This document shows positions 589 to 10,289 of a DNA stretch of 61,647 nt, piece by piece. The notes beneath the pieces are model-generated. The model was not told the DNA's origin. It was given only the letters and a program-made list of their open reading frames with translations, and ran no database searches. Source of the DNA: Corynebacterium sp. (GTDB lineage: Bacteria > Actinomycetota > Actinomycetes > Mycobacteriales > Mycobacteriaceae); the NCBI RefSeq assembly GCF_030532325.1, contig NZ_JAUNLS010000017.1, positions 1-61,647 of the forward strand. The letters are read 5' to 3'. Each line of letters opens with the position of its first letter. Position 1 is the stretch's first letter. The translations under genes were made by a program, and so were the position numbers.

Positions 589-2361
589 CTAACGCAGCTC
601 CCGCAGGGTGCCGTCCAGGCGACGGGTGTGGCTGTGGGCGTCGAGAAGCTCGAGCAAGGGAATGGCCACCCGGCGGGTGGTATCCCACGCCTTGCGCGCC
701 TGCGAGGTGCTGAAAGGCTGCTCCAGCGTGCGCAGAATCTCCACGGCCCGCTGCGGGGCAGAGGGCAGCAGCACCACTCCCCCGCCCAAGCGCAGTACGC
801 GCCCGGCGCGCTCCGCCGCCGCCAGCTCTTTGGGTCCCAGCCCCCAGCGAGCGAGGTCATCGGCCTCCGGCGCCGCAAAAGGCTGCTTTTCGAGCCGCTG
901 CTCCAGCTCCCGCACGCCCTTCTCCGCCGGCCCCAGGTCTACGGTGGCACCGGGCAGGCGCAGCACGCCCTCGGCGGACTCCAGCTTGGCGGCGGCGATG
1001 GCGAGGTTGAGCAGAGGACCCTCGTCAAGCGTAAGCGCCTGCGCCGCCGCCGGGCGGGGCAGACCGGAGGCCAGCGGGTTGGCCTGCGCGTGGGCCTCCA
1101 CCGCCTCGAGCAGCTGCTTCTTCCACGCCCCCACCTGGGCGGCGGCCACCCACCACTGGCGGAAGGCAATCACCCCGGCCGGCGGCGTGGCGGTATCAAA
1201 GCCCAGGCGCTGCAGCGTCGAAACCAGCACGTAGCCTTCCCGAACTACCAGTGCACCGGCATCGCGCGGGTTGTCCAGCGCGGCCAGCGCCGACGCCCGC
1301 CGTGCCGCGTCGCCGCGACGTGTAAAGGCCGGCGGCACGGGGTCCACTACCTCGACTCCTGCCACCACGTGACGCGCCCCCGGCCCGCGCAGCACGGCCC
1401 TATCCCCGATGCGCAGCGGCAGAGGTTCACTGAGGCTCACCCGCGCGTGCTGCGCCGACAGCGGCCGCACCCGGGCCTCCACCGCGGCCGTGCCTACGTG
1501 CAACACCAGGTTCTCCGCCACAGCATCGAGTGCTTCGCCCGTCACCCGCTGCGCGTCAAAGATGGAGACCTGCTGCCACGCTCCGGGGCTGAGCAGCACG
1601 TCGCCGCGGGAGATGCTGCCCGCGTCCACCCCGCGCAGGTTGATGGCCACGCGGCTGACAGGCTCCGCGGCCTGCACCGCGGTGTTCTCGCTGTGCAGCC
1701 CGCGAATGTCTAGGTTGTGCCCCCGCAGCTCGAGGGTATCGCCCACCGCCAACCGGCCAGCCGCCAGCGTTCCGGTGACCACCGTGCCGGCGCCCTTGAC
1801 GCTAAAGGCGCGGTCCACCCAGAAGCGCACCGGCGCCTGAGCATCGGGGGCCGGGGCCGCGGCCAGCAGCTCATCGAGTGCCGCCTTCAGCGCCTCCAGG
1901 CCCTCACCGGTGCGCGCGGAAACCTCCACCATAGGAGCCTCGGCAAAGCTTGTTGCCGCCAGCTCCTCGCGCACCTCAGCGCGCACCCGCGCCCGGCGCT
2001 GCTCATCGGCGCGGTCCGCGCGGGTCAGCGCCACGACGACCTCCCCAACCCCCAGTGCATCGAGCGCATCGCGGTGATCGCTGGACTGGGCCTGCCAGCC
2101 CTCGTCGGCGGCCACCACGAACAGCGCCACCGGCACCGGCCCCACCCCGGCCAGCATGTTGGACAGGAAGCGCTCGTGGCCGGGCACATCCACGAAGGCC
2201 ACGTCCGCCCCCGAGGGCAGGTGGGTCCACACGAAGCCTAAGTCGATGGTCAAGCCGCGCCGCTTCTCCTCCTCCCAGCGGTCCGGCTCCATGCCGGTCA
2301 GCGCCCGCACGAGGGTGGATTTGCCATGGTCAACGTGCCCGGCGGTGGCAACGACGTACAT
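589..2361 (-). CDS. selB: Selenocysteine-specific elongation factor SelB
   Basis: SelB is the GTPase that delivers selenocysteyl-tRNA(Sec) to UGA codons marked by a SECIS hairpin. The 590-residue protein begins with an EF-Tu-like GTPase domain: P-loop GHVDHGKST at about residues 8-16, the switch region 'RRGLTIDLGF', DVPGH (G3), and TRAD where canonical GTPases have NKxD. Beta-barrel domains follow (about 170-340), and the C-terminal 250 residues should hold the winged-helix repeats that bind the SECIS; length fits the bacterial family. The ATG at 2361 directly abuts the selA stop codon (TAG at 2362-2364), so translation is probably coupled. It is the last gene of a selC-selA-selB transcription unit. 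Confidence 0.96.
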   Translation of the reverse strand: MYVVATAGHVDHGKSTLVRALTGMEPDRWEEEKRRGLTIDLGFVWTHLPSGADVAFVDVPGHERFLSNMLAGVGPVPVALFVVAADEGWQAQSSDHRDALDALGVGEVVVALTRADRADEQRRARVRAEVREELAATSFAEAPMVEVSARTGEGLEALKAALDELLAAAPAPDAQAPVRFWVDRAFSVKGAGTVVTGTLAAGRLAVGDTLELRGHNLDIRGLHSENTAVQAAEPVSRVAINLRGVDAGSISRGDVLLSPGAWQQVSIFDAQRVTGEALDAVAENLVLHVGTAAVEARVRPLSAQHARVSLSEPLPLRIGDRAVLRGPGARHVVAGVEVVDPVPPAFTRRGDAARRASALAALDNPRDAGALVVREGYVLVSTLQRLGFDTATPPAGVIAFRQWWVAAAQVGAWKKQLLEAVEAHAQANPLASGLPRPAAAQALTLDEGPLLNLAIAAAKLESAEGVLRLPGATVDLGPAEKGVRELEQRLEKQPFAAPEADDLARWGLGPKELAAAERAGRVLRLGGGVVLLPSAPQRAVEILRTLEQPFSTSQARKAWDTTRRVAIPLLELLDAHSHTRRLDGTLRELR

Positions 2362-3678
2362 CTACTCCCCTTCCTGTGCGCGCACAATCGCCGCGCGCAC
2401 CGCGGCGTCCTGTTCCTGCGGCACGCAGCGCAGATCGATAAGGCAGCGCCCCTGGTGCACGCGGGGTAGCACCGCGGGGCTGCCGGTGCGCAAGGGCGCG
2501 GCCAGCTCCTCCGGCAGTGCCACCGCCCAGCCCGGCAGAGGGTATTCTGGCGCCCCACCGCCGCCCACGCGGCCCTCATGCTTGACGAGTTCCCCCTTTA
2601 CCGCCGCCGCGAGCTCCCGCGTGCGCTGCTCGTAGGAGGCGGCGTCGATGTGCAGGGCGTCCTCGACGGCGTTCGAGGGCGTGGAAACCGCCGCCTCCAG
2701 CGCGTTGAGGCGCAGCTTGTCAATGCGCACTGCCCTGGCCAGCGGGTGCACCTTGAGGCGGGCAATCGCCTGCGTGGTGCCCAGCAGGATGCCGGCCTGC
2801 GGCCCGCCCAGGAGTTTGTCGCCGGAGGCGATGACGATATCGGCGCCCTCGGCAAGCTGGCGGTGCAGGTCCGGCTCCTCGGGCAGGACCGGATCGGCGG
2901 TGAGCAGACCGGAACCCAGGTCGACGATGAGCGGCAGGTCGTGCTGGGTGGCAATCGAGCGCAGCTTCGGCACGGAAACCTGCGCGCTAAACCCCTCAAT
3001 GCGGAAGTTGGAGGGATGCACCTTGAGGATGGCGCCGGTCTCGGGCCCTATGGCCCGCTCGTAGTCCTGCGGGTGTGTGCGGTTGGTCGCGCCGATCTCC
3101 TTGAGACGCACGCCGGTGGACTCGATGAGCTCGGGGAGGCGGAAGCCCGCGCCGATCTCGATGAGCTCCCCGCGGGAAATGATGACCTCCTTGCCGGGGG
3201 CGAGTGCCGCGGTGGCCAGCAGCAACGCTGCGGCACCGTTGTTGACCACGAGTGCGTCCTCGGCGCCCGGGCAGGCGGCCAGCAGCGCCGCGGTGGCCCC
3301 GGCCCCGCGGGTGGAGGAGCGACGCCCGGTGGGCAGATCCAGCTCGACGTCGGTGTAGCCGGCGGCGGCGATGAGCGCCTCGATGGCCGCAGGCGGCAGC
3401 GGCGCGCGGCCCAGGTTGGTGTGCACGATGACCCCGGTGGCGTTGATGACCGGGTGCAAAGAATAGGCGGTAGCGGCGTTGAGTTGGCGGGCGACCTCGC
3501 GGTGGACGTCGCCAGGCTCCAGCTCGCCGCGGCGGGCGCGATGCAGCTGCGCGGTGACGATGGCTTTGATGCGGTGCTCGGACAGCCGCGCGCGGGCGGC
3601 CTGGGCAGCCGGAGTGGACAAAAGCTCATCCATGCGGGGGATGAAGCGGCGGGGATCGGGCTGGGAGGAGGTGCTCAT
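2362..3678 (-). CDS. selA: L-seryl-tRNA(Sec) selenium transferase SelA
   Basis: SelA is a PLP enzyme that converts seryl-tRNA(Sec) to selenocysteyl-tRNA(Sec) using selenophosphate. The 438-residue product starts MSTSSQPDPRRFIPRMDELL at 3678, which fits the family N-terminus; the frame stays open further upstream only because it reads through the tRNA gene. Family landmarks are 'NATGVIVHTNLGRAPL' near residue 80, 'NNGAAALLLA' near 150 and the PLP-lysine motif SGDKLLGGPQAG in the second half. The start is 22 bases after the 3' end of tRNA-Sec and the stop abuts the selB start. I see no strong ribosome-binding site. Confidence 0.96.
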   Translation of the reverse strand: MSTSSQPDPRRFIPRMDELLSTPAAQAARARLSEHRIKAIVTAQLHRARRGELEPGDVHREVARQLNAATAYSLHPVINATGVIVHTNLGRAPLPPAAIEALIAAAGYTDVELDLPTGRRSSTRGAGATAALLAACPGAEDALVVNNGAAALLLATAALAPGKEVIISRGELIEIGAGFRLPELIESTGVRLKEIGATNRTHPQDYERAIGPETGAILKVHPSNFRIEGFSAQVSVPKLRSIATQHDLPLIVDLGSGLLTADPVLPEEPDLHRQLAEGADIVIASGDKLLGGPQAGILLGTTQAIARLKVHPLARAVRIDKLRLNALEAAVSTPSNAVEDALHIDAASYEQRTRELAAAVKGELVKHEGRVGGGGAPEYPLPGWAVALPEELAAPLRTGSPAVLPRVHQGRCLIDLRCVPQEQDAAVRAAIVRAQEGE

Positions 3679-3700: not shown

Positions 3701-3795
3701 TGGCGGAGACGGACAGGAATCGAACCTGCCAGACCGAGATACTCGGCCTCAACGGTTTTGAAGACCGCGGCGCCCACCAGGACGCGTACGCCTCC
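3701..3795 (-). tRNA. selC: tRNA-Sec (anticodon UCA)
   Basis: This 95-base gene on the minus strand runs from GGAGGCG (5' end at 3795) to an encoded G-CCA (3' end at 3701). The anticodon loop CTTCAAA carries TCA, which reads UGA, and is identical to the E. coli selC loop. The acceptor arms GGAGGCG and CGTCTCC pair (one G-U), the T arm reads CAGG-TTCGATT-CCTG, and the long variable arm has GGCCGAG pairing with the following TCGGTCT around a TATC loop. Length, UCA anticodon, long variable arm and adjacency to selA all fit tRNA-Sec. Confidence 0.97.
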
Positions 3796-3856: not shown

Positions 3857-4846
3857 ATGGCTGACATTAAACTGACCTCTTTTGCAGCCGGTGGCGGCTG
3901 CGCATGCAAGATTCCGCCCGGCGAGCTTGAGTCCGCCGTCGAGGGCCTGGTGGGCACCGCGGATCCCAACGTGCTCGTGGGGCTTGACGACGGCGACGAT
4001 GCCGCCGCCGTCAAAATCCAGGACGGCCTCGCGGTGATTTCCACGGCGGACTTCTTCACCCCGATGCTCAACGACCCCTACGACTGGGGCCGGGTGGCCG
4101 CGGCGAACGCGCTGTCCGACGTCTACGCGATGGGCGGCACCCCGGTGACCGCCATCAACCTGGTGGGCTGGCCGCGCGAGGTGCTTCCCTTGGACATCCT
4201 GCGCGAGGTGCTGCGCGGCGGCATGGACGTGGCCAGCAAGGCCGGGATTTCCATCACCGGTGGTCACTCGATCACCGCCCCCGAACCCATCTACGGCCTG
4301 GCCGCCACGGGTGTGGTGTCCCCGGAGAAGCTCATGCGCAACGACTCCGCCGAGGCGGGCCTGCCGATTACGCTGACCAAGCCGATTGGCGTGGGCATCC
4401 TCAACAACAAGCACAAGGCCACCGGGCAGGTTTCCCAGGCGGCGGTGGACTCCATGACCGCGCTCAACCGGGAGGCCTCGCAGGCAGCGGTGGCCGCAGG
4501 CGTCAAGGCAGCGACGGACGTCACCGGCTTTGGCCTGCTGGGTCACCTGTACAAGATGTGTCGTGCCTCGGGTATCGCCGCGGAGATTAACGCCGCCGCG
4601 GTGCCGGCGGTCGAGGGCGCGCGCGAGGCGCTGGCCGAGGGGTTTATCCCCGGCGGCTCGCGCCGCAACCTGGACTGGGTGCGCCCGCACATCACCGCTG
4701 AGGGCTTCAGCGAGGAAGAGCTCATCTTCCTGGCTGACGCCCAGACCTCGGGCGGGCTGCTCATCGTGGGCGAAGTGCCGGGCTACCCGGTCATCGGCCG
4801 CACGGTGGAGCGCCCGGAGGGCGCCCCGTTCATCACCGTCTCCTAG
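3857..4846 (+). CDS. selD: Selenide, water dikinase (selenophosphate synthetase) SelD
   Basis: SelD makes selenophosphate from selenide and ATP, the selenium donor for SelA. The 329-residue protein starts MADIKLTSFAAGGGCACK. By comparison with E. coli SelD (GAGCGCK, catalytic Cys17 and Lys20) the catalytic pair here is Cys15 and Lys18, so this is the cysteine form and needs no Sec itself. The family motifs 'DDAAAVKI', 'TADFFTPMLNDPYDWGRVAA' and 'AMGGTPVTAINLVGWP' are present. It is divergent from selC-selA-selB across 61 bp and its stop codon overlaps that of the formate dehydrogenase membrane subunit on the opposite strand (shared CTAG at 4843-4846). Confidence 0.97.
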   Translation: MADIKLTSFAAGGGCACKIPPGELESAVEGLVGTADPNVLVGLDDGDDAAAVKIQDGLAVISTADFFTPMLNDPYDWGRVAAANALSDVYAMGGTPVTAINLVGWPREVLPLDILREVLRGGMDVASKAGISITGGHSITAPEPIYGLAATGVVSPEKLMRNDSAEAGLPITLTKPIGVGILNNKHKATGQVSQAAVDSMTALNREASQAAVAAGVKAATDVTGFGLLGHLYKMCRASGIAAEINAAAVPAVEGAREALAEGFIPGGSRRNLDWVRPHITAEGFSEEELIFLADAQTSGGLLIVGEVPGYPVIGRTVERPEGAPFITVS

Positions 4847-5931
4847 AAGGGGGTGACCACGGAAGCGTCGAGGCCGCGCTTCGCGGCCCGGCGCTTCTGC
4901 GGGCCGATGGTGGTCATCGGATCCTCCACGGCCTTCAGTCCCGCGTTGAGCACGCCGAAGCGGGTGCACGCGGAGCCGGCCAGCAGGGCAAGGCCGCTGG
5001 CCACGGACACGGCGCGCGACTTGGTAGCGGTGGCTACCGCCGCGCCCACGCCGCCTGCTGTGATGAGGTACTCGGAGGCCTTCATCAGGGCCCCCGGGGT
5101 GCCCTCGTGCAGCGGGCGCAGGGTCTCGGGCTCCATGTTCTTTTCCATCACCTTGGTCGCGGCGATGTCGCTGACCGCGGCGGCCATGCCCAGCGCGCGG
5201 GCCGGGGCGGCGGAATCCACCGGGGTAAACACCATGGCCGCACCTGCGGAGGCCGCGGCGGCCGAGGACACGAACACGTAGGGCAGGTGCTCCTTGGCGT
5301 CATTCCACGTCGGGTTGGAGGTATTGCCCAGCAGCACCGCGGTGTAGCCAGCCAGCGGGCCGCCCAGCACACCGGCCGCCGCACCCGCGGGGCCCGCGGC
5401 GCGGCGCAGGGCCTTGCGCAGGAACTTCGGCAGCGGCAGGCGCCTGCCGGTCAGCTCGTCCGCTTCGACGATGGCCGGGACGGAGGCCGCGGTGGCAAAG
5501 CTGCCCAGGATCCAGGAGCCCACGGACATCGGCGAGGTCACCTTGAACACGCGGAACATGTTGAGCAGGCGTTCCGGGCGGCCCAGATCCAGCACGAGGA
5601 AGACCGATCCCAGCGAGGCCGCGCTGAACGCGGTCAGGCGGGTGCTGCGGCGCAGGGCCTTATTGCCCGTTGCCTGCGCGCCGGCGGCCAGCAGGGCCGA
5701 TCCGCCGGAGACGCCGCCGAGGAAAAGGTACGCGCCAATCGGCCACTCCCACGGCGGAGCCTTGACCACTGGCTTGCCGTAGTAGGAGGTGAACTCAAAG
5801 TCCTCCGCCATGCGCTGCTCTTTGGAACCGTCCTGCGCGCCGGCACCAACGCGCTTGCGCTTGCGCTTCTTGCCACCGAACCCGCGGCGGCGCGGCTCTT
5901 GCGGCGGGCGGTACTCGTCAAACTCAGTCAC
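4843..5931 (-). CDS. NrfD-type membrane subunit of formate dehydrogenase
   Basis: The 362-residue membrane protein has a basic, charged N-terminal region (about residues 1-60, with RRRGFGGKKRKRKR) and then multiple hydrophobic segments, beginning 'WPIGAYLFLGGVSGGSALLA'. This resembles the NrfD/PsrC (polysulfide reductase) family of quinone-reacting membrane subunits, not the cytochrome b type (FdnI) of E. coli formate dehydrogenase N. Its ATG overlaps the stop of fdhB by four bases (ATGA), so it is the third gene of the operon. The likely role is anchoring the FdhAB dimer and passing electrons to menaquinone. The function is inferred from context; an fdhC-like name would be positional. Confidence 0.85.
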   Translation of the reverse strand: MTEFDEYRPPQEPRRRGFGGKKRKRKRVGAGAQDGSKEQRMAEDFEFTSYYGKPVVKAPPWEWPIGAYLFLGGVSGGSALLAAGAQATGNKALRRSTRLTAFSAASLGSVFLVLDLGRPERLLNMFRVFKVTSPMSVGSWILGSFATAASVPAIVEADELTGRRLPLPKFLRKALRRAAGPAGAAAGVLGGPLAGYTAVLLGNTSNPTWNDAKEHLPYVFVSSAAAASAGAAMVFTPVDSAAPARALGMAAAVSDIAATKVMEKNMEPETLRPLHEGTPGALMKASEYLITAGGVGAAVATATKSRAVSVASGLALLAGSACTRFGVLNAGLKAVEDPMTTIGPQKRRAAKRGLDASVVTPF

Positions 5932-6989
5932 TTGCGTCCTCCCAGTACGAATGCGCCGGCCACGGCGAGCGCCATGCCGCCGATTGCCTTCGCTGCGGTT
6001 GTGTACATCTGCGGTAGGTCTGCCGTGGGCACGCGCGGGTCCGGCGGCAGGCCGTAGACCTCCGGGGAATCCAGCAGCAGGAAGATAGAGCCGGTGCCGC
6101 CGACGCCGTCCTTGCTGTTGGCGCCGTAGAGGCGGGCCTCCGTCAGCCCCTGGGAGTGGAGCACCTTGACGCGCTCCTTCGCCGCGGCGAGCATCTCCTC
6201 GTAGGGGCCGAACTGAATGGAATCAGTTGGACAGGTCTTGGCGCACGCCGGCTGCTCCCCCATCTTCAGGCGGTCGTAGCACATGGTGCACTTCTGGGCC
6301 ACGCCCATGTTGTGGATGGGCATCGGCTTGCCCGGGGTGTGGTCCGGGCCCTGCGGCTGCAGCTGGCGCAGCTTCTTGAGCAGGTTCACGCCGGCGTGGC
6401 TGTAATCCTCGTAGTCCACGGTGGCGGTCTTGTCCGTCTTGAGCGTCACGCCGCCGTCGTCGCGGCGCTCGATGACGCCGAAGGGGCATCCGGCCACGCA
6501 GGTGCCGCAGCCGTTGCACACGTCATCTTGCACCACGACGGTGCCGAACTCCGTGCGAAACAGCGCGCCCGTGGGGCAGACATCGAGGCAGCCGGCGTTG
6601 GTGCAGTGCTTGCACACATCGGAGGACATCAGCCAGCGGAAGTCGCTGGTGTCCGGCGGGGTGGTATCGGGGGCGTCGTCAAGCGCGGCGCCCACCGAGG
6701 GCATGCCCAGCGAGACCAGTTTGCGGCCCTCCTCGCGGGCCTGCTCGATGCGCTCGTTGTTCTGCTCGATAAAGGCCACGTGGCGCCAGGTGTTGGCGCC
6801 GAGGGAGCCGGTGTTGTCGTAGGAGTTACCGGTAACCTCGTAGCCCTCGACGGGGTTGCGGTTCCACTCCTTGCAGGCAACCTCGCAGGCCTTGCAGCCG
6901 ATGCACACCGACGTGTCGGTGAAAAAGGCCATGCGCCGGTAGGACTCGTAGCCGTGCTGATCGGCCTTCTCGGTCAATGCGTTGACCAT
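5928..6989 (-). CDS. fdhB: Formate dehydrogenase iron-sulfur subunit
   Basis: The 353-residue ferredoxin-like electron transfer subunit has four cysteine groups: CIGCKACEVACKEWN (from about residue 29), CKHCTNAGCLDVCP, CNGCGTCVAGCP, and CTMC with CAKTCP, enough for four [4Fe-4S] clusters as in FdnH/FdoH. The last 25 residues form one hydrophobic segment (MYTTAAKAIGGMALAVAGAF), like the C-terminal anchor of E. coli FdnH. It starts 3 bases after the fdhA stop and overlaps the NrfD-like gene by four bases. It carries electrons from the Mo/Se site of FdhA to the membrane subunit. Confidence 0.95.
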   Translation of the reverse strand: MVNALTEKADQHGYESYRRMAFFTDTSVCIGCKACEVACKEWNRNPVEGYEVTGNSYDNTGSLGANTWRHVAFIEQNNERIEQAREEGRKLVSLGMPSVGAALDDAPDTTPPDTSDFRWLMSSDVCKHCTNAGCLDVCPTGALFRTEFGTVVVQDDVCNGCGTCVAGCPFGVIERRDDGGVTLKTDKTATVDYEDYSHAGVNLLKKLRQLQPQGPDHTPGKPMPIHNMGVAQKCTMCYDRLKMGEQPACAKTCPTDSIQFGPYEEMLAAAKERVKVLHSQGLTEARLYGANSKDGVGGTGSIFLLLDSPEVYGLPPDPRVPTADLPQMYTTAAKAIGGMALAVAGAFVLGGRK

Positions 6990-6992
6990 CTT

Positions 6993-9900
6993 CTATCCTT
7001 CCTTGCCTTCCTCGGGCTTCTCCGTGCTGATCGGCGCGGAGCTGGGCTCGGCGTCAGAGCCCGGGGTGGGACCCTCGGTCTCGGCGACACCGTCCGTGGT
7101 GGTGAACTCGTCACCCACGTCGAGCACGCGGTTACCGGTCTCGACGGTCAGCCCTGCCTTCTGCTGATATTCCTTGAGCAGCTCCACGCGAGCCTCGCCG
7201 CGCGGACGGCGGCCCGGGCGGATATCGCAGGCGCCGACCTTGGAGTTCTGGATGAACACGTTCGGCTCGAGGGTCAGGCCGAGCAGGTCATTGGCGCCGT
7301 CGCCAGCCACCGGCGTGGTGTCGGACTCACCGTAGTGGTACGGGATACCAATCTGGTGGAAGTCCTTGCCGTTGATGGTGAGCATCTCCATGCGGTCGGT
7401 AACCAACACCTGGGCCTCGATGACACCACGCGGGGAGACGATGGTGGCCCACTCGCCGTTGACCAGGCCGCGCTTGGCGGCCAGATCGCGGTCAACCTCA
7501 CAGAACAGGCCCGGCTGCAGCTCCGCCAGGTAAGGCAGGCGGCGCGACATCGCACCCGAGGTGTACATCTCCGTGAGACGGTAGGTGTTGAACACGAACG
7601 GGAAGACATCCTCGCCGAACTCACCCGGCGCCGGACGCGACAGGTTGTCCGGGCGCTTGATGGTCAGGCGGGTCGGCGACTGCTGCTGCTTGTACAGCGC
7701 GTTGAGCACCGGGGATTCCTGCGGCTCGTAGTGCGTGGGCAGAGGACCATCGGACAGGCCCTTCGGGGCGAAGAGCCAGCCCAGGCCGTCGGCCTGCATG
7801 ATGAAGGGATCGTCGCCGTCGAGGGCGGCGGGGCCGACGGCGTCGACAGGAGCCTTGTAATCCGGGCGCTTGGTGGCCGGGAAGTCGGGCACGTCATCAC
7901 CCACCCAGGAACCGGATGCCTCGTCCCACCAGATGTACTTCTTGCGCTCCGACCACGGAGTGCCATCCGGCTTTGCCGATGCACGGTTGTAGAGGATGCG
8001 GCGGTTGGCCGGCCAGACCCAGCCCCACTCCAGGGCCACCTCGTTCTGCTCGGAACCAGGCACCTTGCTGGCGGAGTGGTTGATGCCGTCCTTGAACACG
8101 CCGGTGTAGATCCAGCAGCCACCGGAAGTGGAGCCGTCATTCTTCATCTCCACGAAGGCAGGCAGCAGCTGGCCCTTCTTCGGCCCCTCCAGGTAGTAGC
8201 CGTTGATCTCGCGCAGGATCTCCTCGGAATCCGGCTCGCCGTGCTCGTCCTCGGTGTAATCCCAGGTCACGGACTGGATGGGCAGATCGCGTGGATCAGT
8301 GGACTCGGCCAGGCGCTCCTTGATGCGCTTGCCCAGCTGGTAGAAGAACCAGCCGTCGGACCGGGCCTGACCCGGCGGGGTCACGGCCTGGAAGCGCCAC
8401 TGCAGCATGCGCTGAGTCTGGGTGAAGGTACCGGACTTCTCCACGTGGGTGGCCGCCGGCATGAGGAAGACTTCGGTGCCGATCTCCTCGGTCTTGAGCT
8501 CGCCGTTGCGTACCTCGGGCGAGTCCTTCCAGAAGGAGGCGGTCTCGATTTCCTGGAAGTCGCGAACCACGAGCCACTTTAGGGAGGCCAGGCCGCGTCG
8601 CTGCATGCCGCCATTGGACTGTGCCACCGCTGGGTTCTGGCCGAAGACGATGTAGCCCTCGACCTCCTTGTCCAGCATGGCCATGAGGGTCTCGTAGGTG
8701 GAGTGCGCGCCGGAGATCTTGGGCATGAGGTCGTAGCCCCAGCCGTTCTCCTTGGTGGCAGCATCGCCCCAGTAGGACTTCATGAGCGAGACGGCGTAGT
8801 TCTCACCGATCTGCCAGAAGCCCTTCTGGTCCTCAGCCCGGATGGCCTTGACGTAGTCCTGCCACGTCTCCTGCGCCACGTGCGGCATGGGCAGGTAGCC
8901 CGGCAGGGAGTGGAAGAGCGTCGGGATATCCGTGGAGCCTTGGATGGAGGCGTGGCCACGCAGCGCCATGATGCCAGAGCCCGGGCGGCCCACGTTGCCC
9001 ATGAGCAGCTGGAGAATCGCCGCGGTGCGGATGAACTGCGCGCCCAGGGTGTGCTGGGTAAAGCCCAGCGCGTAGGCGAAGCAGGTGGTGCGCTCCGGGT
9101 TGGAGTTATCGGCGATCGAGTTTGCCAGGTAGTAGAAGTCCTCCTGCGAGATACCGCAGGTCTCCTCCACCAGCTCCGGGGTGTAGCGCGAGTAGTGACG
9201 CTTAAGAATCTGGAACACCGAGTTCGGGTGCTGCAGGCTCATGTCCTTCTCCACGTTCCACGAGGAGCCTTCCGGCTTGCGCACGTACTGCCAGGAGTCC
9301 GTGACGTACTTGCCACTTTCGGCGTCGTAGCCAGAGAAGAGGCCCTCGAGGTCCTCGGTATCACGGTAGTCCTCGGAGATGATCGAGGCCGCGTTGGTGT
9401 AGTTCACCACGTAGTCGTGGAAATAGAGGTCATTGTCCAAGACGTACTTGATGATGGCACCAAGCAGGACAACGTCCGTGCCGCCGCGGATGCCGATGTG
9501 GCGGTTCGCGAAAGCGGAGGTACGCGTGTAGCGCGGATCCACGTGAATGATGCGCGCGCCGCGCTTCTTGGCCTCAACCACCCACTGGAAGCCCACCGGG
9601 TGGCACTCGGCCATGTTAGAACCCTGAATGACGATGCAGTCCGCATTCGCCATATCCTGCAGCGGCTGGGTTGCGCCGCCGCGGCCAAACGAAGTTCCCA
9701 AACTGGGAACGGTGGCGGAGTGTCATATGCGGGCCTGATTTTCGACCTGAATAGCGCCCGTGGCGGTAAACAGCTTCTTAATCAGGTAGTTCTCCTCGTT
9801 GTCGAGGGTCGCGCCGCCGAGGCCGGCCACGCCCATGGTGCGGTTGAGGCGGCGGCCTTGCTCGTCGGTGTCCTCCCAGTGGTTGCGGCGGGCCTCAAGG

Positions 9901-10289
9901 AAGCGATCGGTGATCATCTCCATCGCGGTTTCCTCATCGAGGTCCTGCCACTCCGTGGAGTACGGGGCGCGGTACTTGATGGTGGTCAGACGCGAGGCGG
10001 AGTTGATGAGCTGCTCCGAGGCCGAGCCCTTGGGGCACAGGCGGCCGCGGGAGATCGGAGAATCTGGGTCACCTTCGATCTGAATGACGCGGTTGTCTTT
10101 GACGTAGACGCGCTGGGAGCATCCCACCGCGCAGTAGGGGCAGACGGACTGAACGACCTTGTCGGCGTCGACAAGACGGCCTTGCATGTCCTTGCTTTTT
10201 GCGGACTGCGTGTTCACGTCCCTGCCAAAGGCATCTTTATTGCGCATCTGGCGGACAACGGGCCAGTTGAGCGGGCTAAAACGAGACAT
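6993..10289 (-). CDS. fdhA: Selenocysteine-containing formate dehydrogenase, catalytic subunit
   Basis: One gene of 1098 residues is read through an in-frame TGA at 9723-9725 (residue 189). The N-terminal part has the [4Fe-4S] motif Cys50-x2-Cys53-x3-Cys57 ... Cys85 (CPYCAVGC ... CPKG). Across the TGA the sequence reads ARI-U-HSATVPSL, followed by GTSFGRGGATQ, the same pattern as the Sec site of E. coli FdnG (ARV-U-HGPTV ... FGRGA). The remaining 900 residues are a molybdopterin oxidoreductase with a C-terminal dinucleotide-binding domain and an acidic Pro/Glu tail. There is no twin-arginine signal, unlike FdnG/FdoG, so the enzyme should stay in the cytoplasm. The start at 10289 lies 6 bases after a TACTTT -10 hexamer (leaderless). 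Standard gene callers would split it into a 188-residue and a 902-residue piece. Confidence 0.94.
9694..9725 (-). promoter_or_regulatory. Bacterial SECIS-like element after the fdhA UGA
   Basis: Immediately after TGA (9725-9723) come 12 bases and then a perfect 6-bp hairpin, GTTCCC (9710-9705), loop AGTTT (9704-9700), GGGAAC (9699-9694). The loop starts 18 bases after the UGA, the same distance as the GGUCU loop in E. coli fdhF, and keeps the G-U pair of loop bases needed for SelB contact. With SelB, SelA, SelD and tRNA-Sec encoded next door this strongly supports Sec insertion. Confidence 0.85.

Follow-up and report, generated by a model that had tools for sequence, protein, structure and literature searches.

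The window analysed, a stretch of 61,647 nucleotides from a Corynebacterium sp., contains a formate dehydrogenase gene with an internal TGA, the genes of two probable partner subunits, and a set of genes for selenocysteine (Sec) synthesis and insertion. The features concerned, in coordinates of the window, are as follows.

6993..10289, minus strand: fdhA (fdnG-type), formate dehydrogenase alpha subunit, 1098 residues with a predicted selenocysteine at 189
9723..9725, minus strand: in-frame TGA, predicted selenocysteine codon 189, TGA in 79/79 copies from the genus
9694..9710, minus strand: predicted SECIS hairpin in the mRNA, 6-bp stem GUUCCC/GGGAAC, loop AGUUU, 12 bases after the UGA
5928..6989, minus strand: fdhB, [4Fe-4S] ferredoxin-like beta subunit (Pfam Fer4 families)
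4843..5931, minus strand: fdhC, NrfD-family membrane subunit (Pfam PF03916)
3857..4846, plus strand: selD, selenophosphate synthetase, 329 residues from the ATG at 3857 (Pfam AIRS and AIRS_C)
3701..3795, minus strand: selC, tRNA-Sec, anticodon TCA (ARAGORN; Rfam RF01852)
2362..3678, minus strand: selA, selenocysteine synthase, 438 residues (PF03841)
589..2361, minus strand: selB, selenocysteine-specific elongation factor (GTP_EFTU, SelB beta-barrel and SelB winged-helix domains)

The fdhB and fdhC genes lie downstream of fdhA on the same strand, followed by the convergent selD and then by tRNA-Sec, selA and selB. All four components of the Sec-decoding trait (selA, selB, selC and selD) were thus found, within about 6.5 kb. 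The Rfam RF01852 match at 3705–3795 scored 76.8 bits against a cut-off of 47. The start listed for selA by the open reading frame (ORF) finder, 3777, lies within the tRNA-Sec gene, and the likely start is instead the ATG at 3678, 22 bases past the tRNA. The name selD is given on the basis of genomic context together with the AIRS and AIRS_C matches, which were obtained on a slightly longer frame from 3809 and belong to general families that include SelD. Elsewhere, the genome has an FdhD-family member (PF02634; L152, G000:C2:15056-15775). FdhD is named an accessory sulfurtransferase in PMC7176365. In PMC2830990 the C. aurimucosum fdhD is presented as a second formate dehydrogenase, of the thiol type; this name appears to be mistaken.

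The first-pass annotation had proposed that fdhA is one gene with an in-frame UGA, that the halves on either side of the TGA join without a shift, and that automated annotation would return two broken genes. In agreement with this, the minus-strand frame from 10289 to 6993 holds a single internal TGA and is otherwise open to its terminal TAG, and a plain ORF list cuts it into pieces of 188 and 902 amino acids. Reading fdhA through the TGA restores as one gene the two that a plain ORF caller reports, and the sequence data support recoding of this codon as Sec.

Joined across the TGA, FdhA matched both E. coli FdnG (1kqf; E 1.4e-210) and 1h0h (E 2.1e-210) over nearly its whole length, and in the printed alignments of both an X, presumably Sec, faces codon 189. 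Pairwise alignment with FdnG gave identical residues at 386 of 934 aligned positions. FdhA residues 189, 190 and 444 align with Sec196, His197 and Arg446 of FdnG and with Sec140, His141 and Arg333 of FdhF, and the four cysteines of the Fe4S4 domain also align between FdhA and the E. coli enzymes. In the E. coli genes, codon 196 of fdnG and codon 140 of fdhF are themselves in-frame TGA. FdhA accordingly has the near whole-length homology and the molybdopterin and Fe4S4 domains of an FdnG-type alpha subunit, its catalytic Sec position being UGA and the next residue His, and the earlier proposal that the residues around the TGA match an FdnG-type Sec site was upheld by alignment of the joined protein to both FdnG and FdhF. 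It is most improbable that the two frames yield separate polypeptides that assemble with one another: a TTG at 9701 does open the 902-residue frame, but this frame starts at codon 197, so that residue 189, the catalytic one, would be missing from both pieces, and the selenocysteine machinery adjoins the gene and co-occurs with it.

The hairpin reads GTTCCC-AGTTT-GGGAAC in DNA, from 9710 to 9694. It had been said to begin at the same distance from the UGA as in E. coli fdhF. This held for the loop, in which both genes have the G and U at bases 23 and 24 (numbering from the T of TGA), and not for the stem, which starts 12 bases after the UGA here and, as usually drawn, 11 bases past it in fdhF. 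E. coli fdhF and fdnG both carry a T at 17 and 24 and a G at 23, the three bases that contact SelB, and so do 79/79 copies from the genus. The four inner pairs and the loop GU are likewise kept in all 79 of these copies, which are related and not independent of one another. In 200,000 simulated windows with a fixed protein and codons sampled according to fdhA usage, the loop GU and all four inner pairs arose together by chance in 0.5%. By contrast, the outer pair 17–31 is unformed in 23/79 copies. Conservation therefore does not extend to a strict 6-bp stem, and base 17 may stay unpaired, which is the case in the E. coli SECIS.

No SECIS family in Rfam matched within the window at E values up to 1, and the hairpin was therefore examined by alignment and with a model of our own. 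A search of the genome for a second, like SECIS with this model, which is specific to fdhA-like sites and which unlike SECIS elements escape, returned seven matches up to E 10, the best of them fdhA (1.5e-13), followed by one at 0.47. Of 1598 TGA scanned in the window, 3 combine a T at 17 with the loop GU and the four inner pairs. The fdhA codon has 189 open codons before and 909 after it; the other two (59 and 85, and 73 and 12, respectively) were taken as chance. The bacterial SECIS limits given in PMC13188914 are a loop of 3–9 nt, a stem of 4–16 bp, a G in the first two loop positions and 16–37 nt from UGA to loop. With a 5 nt loop, 6 bp, the loop AGUUU (G at the second position, then U) and 18 nt, the fdhA hairpin falls inside these four limits, and in the four compared no difference from that consensus model was seen.

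To place the locus in the context of the genus, FdhA and tRNA-Sec were sought in 242 Corynebacterium genomes. FdhA was found at E 1e-100 or better in 78, and tRNA-Sec above the Rfam cut-off in 78 (weak matches to other tRNAs, seen in all 242 genomes, were set aside by this cut-off); the two sets are identical. A remote sense-codon homologue (G027; 33% identity, E 6e-34) was left uncounted as belonging to another family. Among the 79 copies in these 78 genomes (one genome has two), the Sec site is TGA in every case, and 4/79 read NVARI instead of NQARI in the motif. Our SECIS model, which was built partly from these sequences, also matched 78/242 genomes, by eye the same set. Named genome contigs contributed 65 loci, spanning, among those with TGA, Corynebacterium to Ktedonobacter and Acidobacteria. 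The site is covered in 64 of them (L222 does not reach it), and all 64 have the TGA, the four inner pairs and the loop GU, the stem pairs of L168 and L221 having been read by eye. One genome (G150) carries two fdhA copies (L090 and L098), with starts about 10 kb apart, both having the TGA and the inner hairpin.

This conservation practically refutes the idea that the TGA is a nonsense mutation or a sequencing error and fdhA a pseudogene. The two broken frames given by a plain ORF finder, and the extra TAG codons present in two copies from the genus, are what such an explanation would have in its favour; against it stand the TGA at the same codon in 79/79 genus copies and in 64/65 named-contig loci (the 65th not covering the site), and the high GC content at third codon positions on both sides of the TGA (0.81 and 0.87). 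We regard it as having a negligible chance of being correct.

Because the protein fixes much of the stretch that forms the hairpin, synonymous choices provide an informative test of selection on the RNA. Relative to codon usage elsewhere, computed in the fdhA of 37 full loci, these choices are skewed. Where the loop codon encodes Ser (71 genus copies) it is always AGT, compared with 3% of Ser codons elsewhere, and where it encodes Gly (8 copies) it is always GGT, compared with 29% elsewhere. Pair 21–27 is C-G in 41 and T-A in 38 of the 79 copies and is never broken. This pair joins the wobble positions of a Pro and a Leu codon, with CCC accompanied by TTG or CTG in the 41 and CCT by CTA or TTA in the 38, although CTA and TTA together make up 4% of Leu codons elsewhere in fdhA.

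Covariation was assessed in an RNA alignment (A1) of 47 of the 62 distinct 48-base windows from 79 genus and 16 order copies, omitting the Cys row L016 and 14 windows close to rows kept. Standard pairs fill 96.1% of pair cells in these 47 rows, compared with at most 66.0% when the pairing was slid by 1–3 columns. Double changes were seen in 22 cells, where shuffles gave 5.4 (sd 1.8); the observed covariation score was 0.298 and that of the shuffles 0.166. In either case 0/500 shuffles reached as high; the shuffles ignore relatedness, which the slid controls retain. Two of the five measures showed no excess over shuffles, namely how many pairs show any double change (2 versus 1.9) and how many further pair types occur (5 versus 5.0), and three of the six stem pairs are invariant. 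The stem is thus kept by compensatory change, as expected of a SECIS, and is not kept in Cys homologues (below). The genus-wide set is a clean natural case in which protein and RNA both constrain the same stem.

Outside the genus, a search of the class found FdhA in at least 82 of 296 genomes. Of 40 N-terminal stretches taken from this search, 29 have TGA at the site and 11 a sense codon. The latter, which include the same-family homologues in G423 and G495, are 61–63% identical to FdhA over about residues 8–336. Together with a further homologue from the same order (L016 in G041; 59%), they make up 12 Cys homologues (TGC or TGT). The four inner stem pairs are all kept in 0/12 of these compared with 27/29 class TGA homologues, and the loop GU in 2/12 compared with 29/29. 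At E 1e-8, tRNA-Sec was matched in 28/29 genomes with a TGA homologue, the exception (G323) being 84% complete, while 8/12 Cys-homologue genomes had no match. Four of the twelve were above the cut-off: G395, which bears a TGA copy besides its Cys homologue, G470 and G041 clearly so, and G301 just (49.8 bits against 47). The first-pass annotation had named, as the case contrary to its reading, close relatives that carry a sense codon and lack sel genes. The 78 genus genomes in which FdhA matched at E 1e-100 or better include no such case, and the sense-codon homologues outside the genus follow the usual Sec/Cys pair pattern, which is no refutation.

These comparisons also bear on whether translation might pass the UGA without selenium, by means of a near-cognate tRNA or by insertion of cysteine. 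Such read-through may occur at a low level under selenium shortage; as the explanation of the conserved codon it is extremely unlikely, given that the gene and tRNA-Sec occur in identical sets of 78 genomes and that the full hairpin is absent from 12/12 Cys homologues.

Two further observations concern Sec decoding in these relatives. In G470 (L116) and G041 (L016), a cysteine FdhA homologue accompanies a clear tRNA-Sec, which may point to a further Sec gene in these genomes. In G051, a relative from the same order, the Sec codon of fdhA is TAG (L028), and the tRNA-Sec match (64.2 bits; L106 1497-1592) has the anticodon CTA and is called tRNA-Pyl by ARAGORN; a CUA tRNA-Sec is known in Geodermatophilaceae (PMC5330540).

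Taken together, the homology at codon 189, the sel set within about 6.5 kb, the invariant TGA, the identical 78-genome sets, and a co-varying hairpin whose full form is missing from all 12 Cys homologues support Sec recoding. On this sequence evidence, the fdhA TGA is almost certainly decoded as selenocysteine in the catalytic subunit of a membrane-associated molybdopterin formate dehydrogenase. A single gene would encode this subunit, with UGA codon 189 read as Sec during translation when SelB docks, with its Sec-tRNA-Sec, on the hairpin immediately 3' of the UGA; tRNA-Sec, SelA, SelB and SelD would be supplied by the adjacent genes. The Sec selenol would then be a ligand of Mo (or W) at the formate-oxidising site, and FdhB would probably relay electrons to the NrfD-type membrane subunit, and this in turn to quinone.

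The presence of fdhA and tRNA-Sec in the same 78/242 genomes, and the change to cysteine, seen in family, order and class relatives, in 0/79 copies, tilt the balance somewhat towards the view that Corynebacterium keeps the selenocysteine machinery for fdhA alone and loses the module as a block, never rescuing it by cysteine; the genus counts cover fdhA and tRNA-Sec, and the SECIS search fdhA-like elements. FdhA is described in PMC1794560 as a likely keeper of the Sec trait, and a Sec-to-Cys change in FdhA is reported there as well. In two genomes, G008 and G257, fdhA has an extra in-frame TAG (L012 and L099), at different places, and the tRNA-Sec of G257 is the lowest-scoring of the 78 (66.6 bits) and was missed by ARAGORN. 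The extra TAG codons suggest that these fdhA copies may be decaying, and it is possible that the module is beginning to be lost in these genomes.

Among known systems, E. coli formate dehydrogenase N has in FdnG a homologous catalytic subunit that shares the Sec, His and Arg positions of FdhA, and the loop GU of its gene lies at the same offset from the UGA. FdnG starts with a twin-arginine signal, whereas none of this kind was seen when the N-terminus of FdhA was compared by eye; such an export signal is not a defining feature of the formate dehydrogenase catalytic family, and its absence from the FdhA sequence suggests a cytoplasmic active site. The membrane subunits also differ, being of the NrfD family in Corynebacterium and a cytochrome b, FdnI, in E. 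coli.

The cluster is of an already known, ordinary and published kind, and raises no new question of mechanism. In C. aurimucosum ATCC 700975, a different species or strain from the source of this fdhA, clustered selABD and selC adjoin an fdnG with an internal UGA, and the same conclusion was drawn in 2010 (PMC2830990); the main text of that paper names SECIS once, in a general description rather than in an analysis of fdnG. FdhA of G011, taken as this strain, is 89% identical over residues 1–1074. In another actinobacterium, A. chiangmaiensis DSM 45062, which has three Sec formate dehydrogenase systems, formate removal depends on selenite (PMC7176365). As described there, FDH1 is membrane-bound, with FdhA1, FdhB1 and FdhC1 of 1078, 362 and 366 residues, respectively, and its cluster also holds SelA and SelB.
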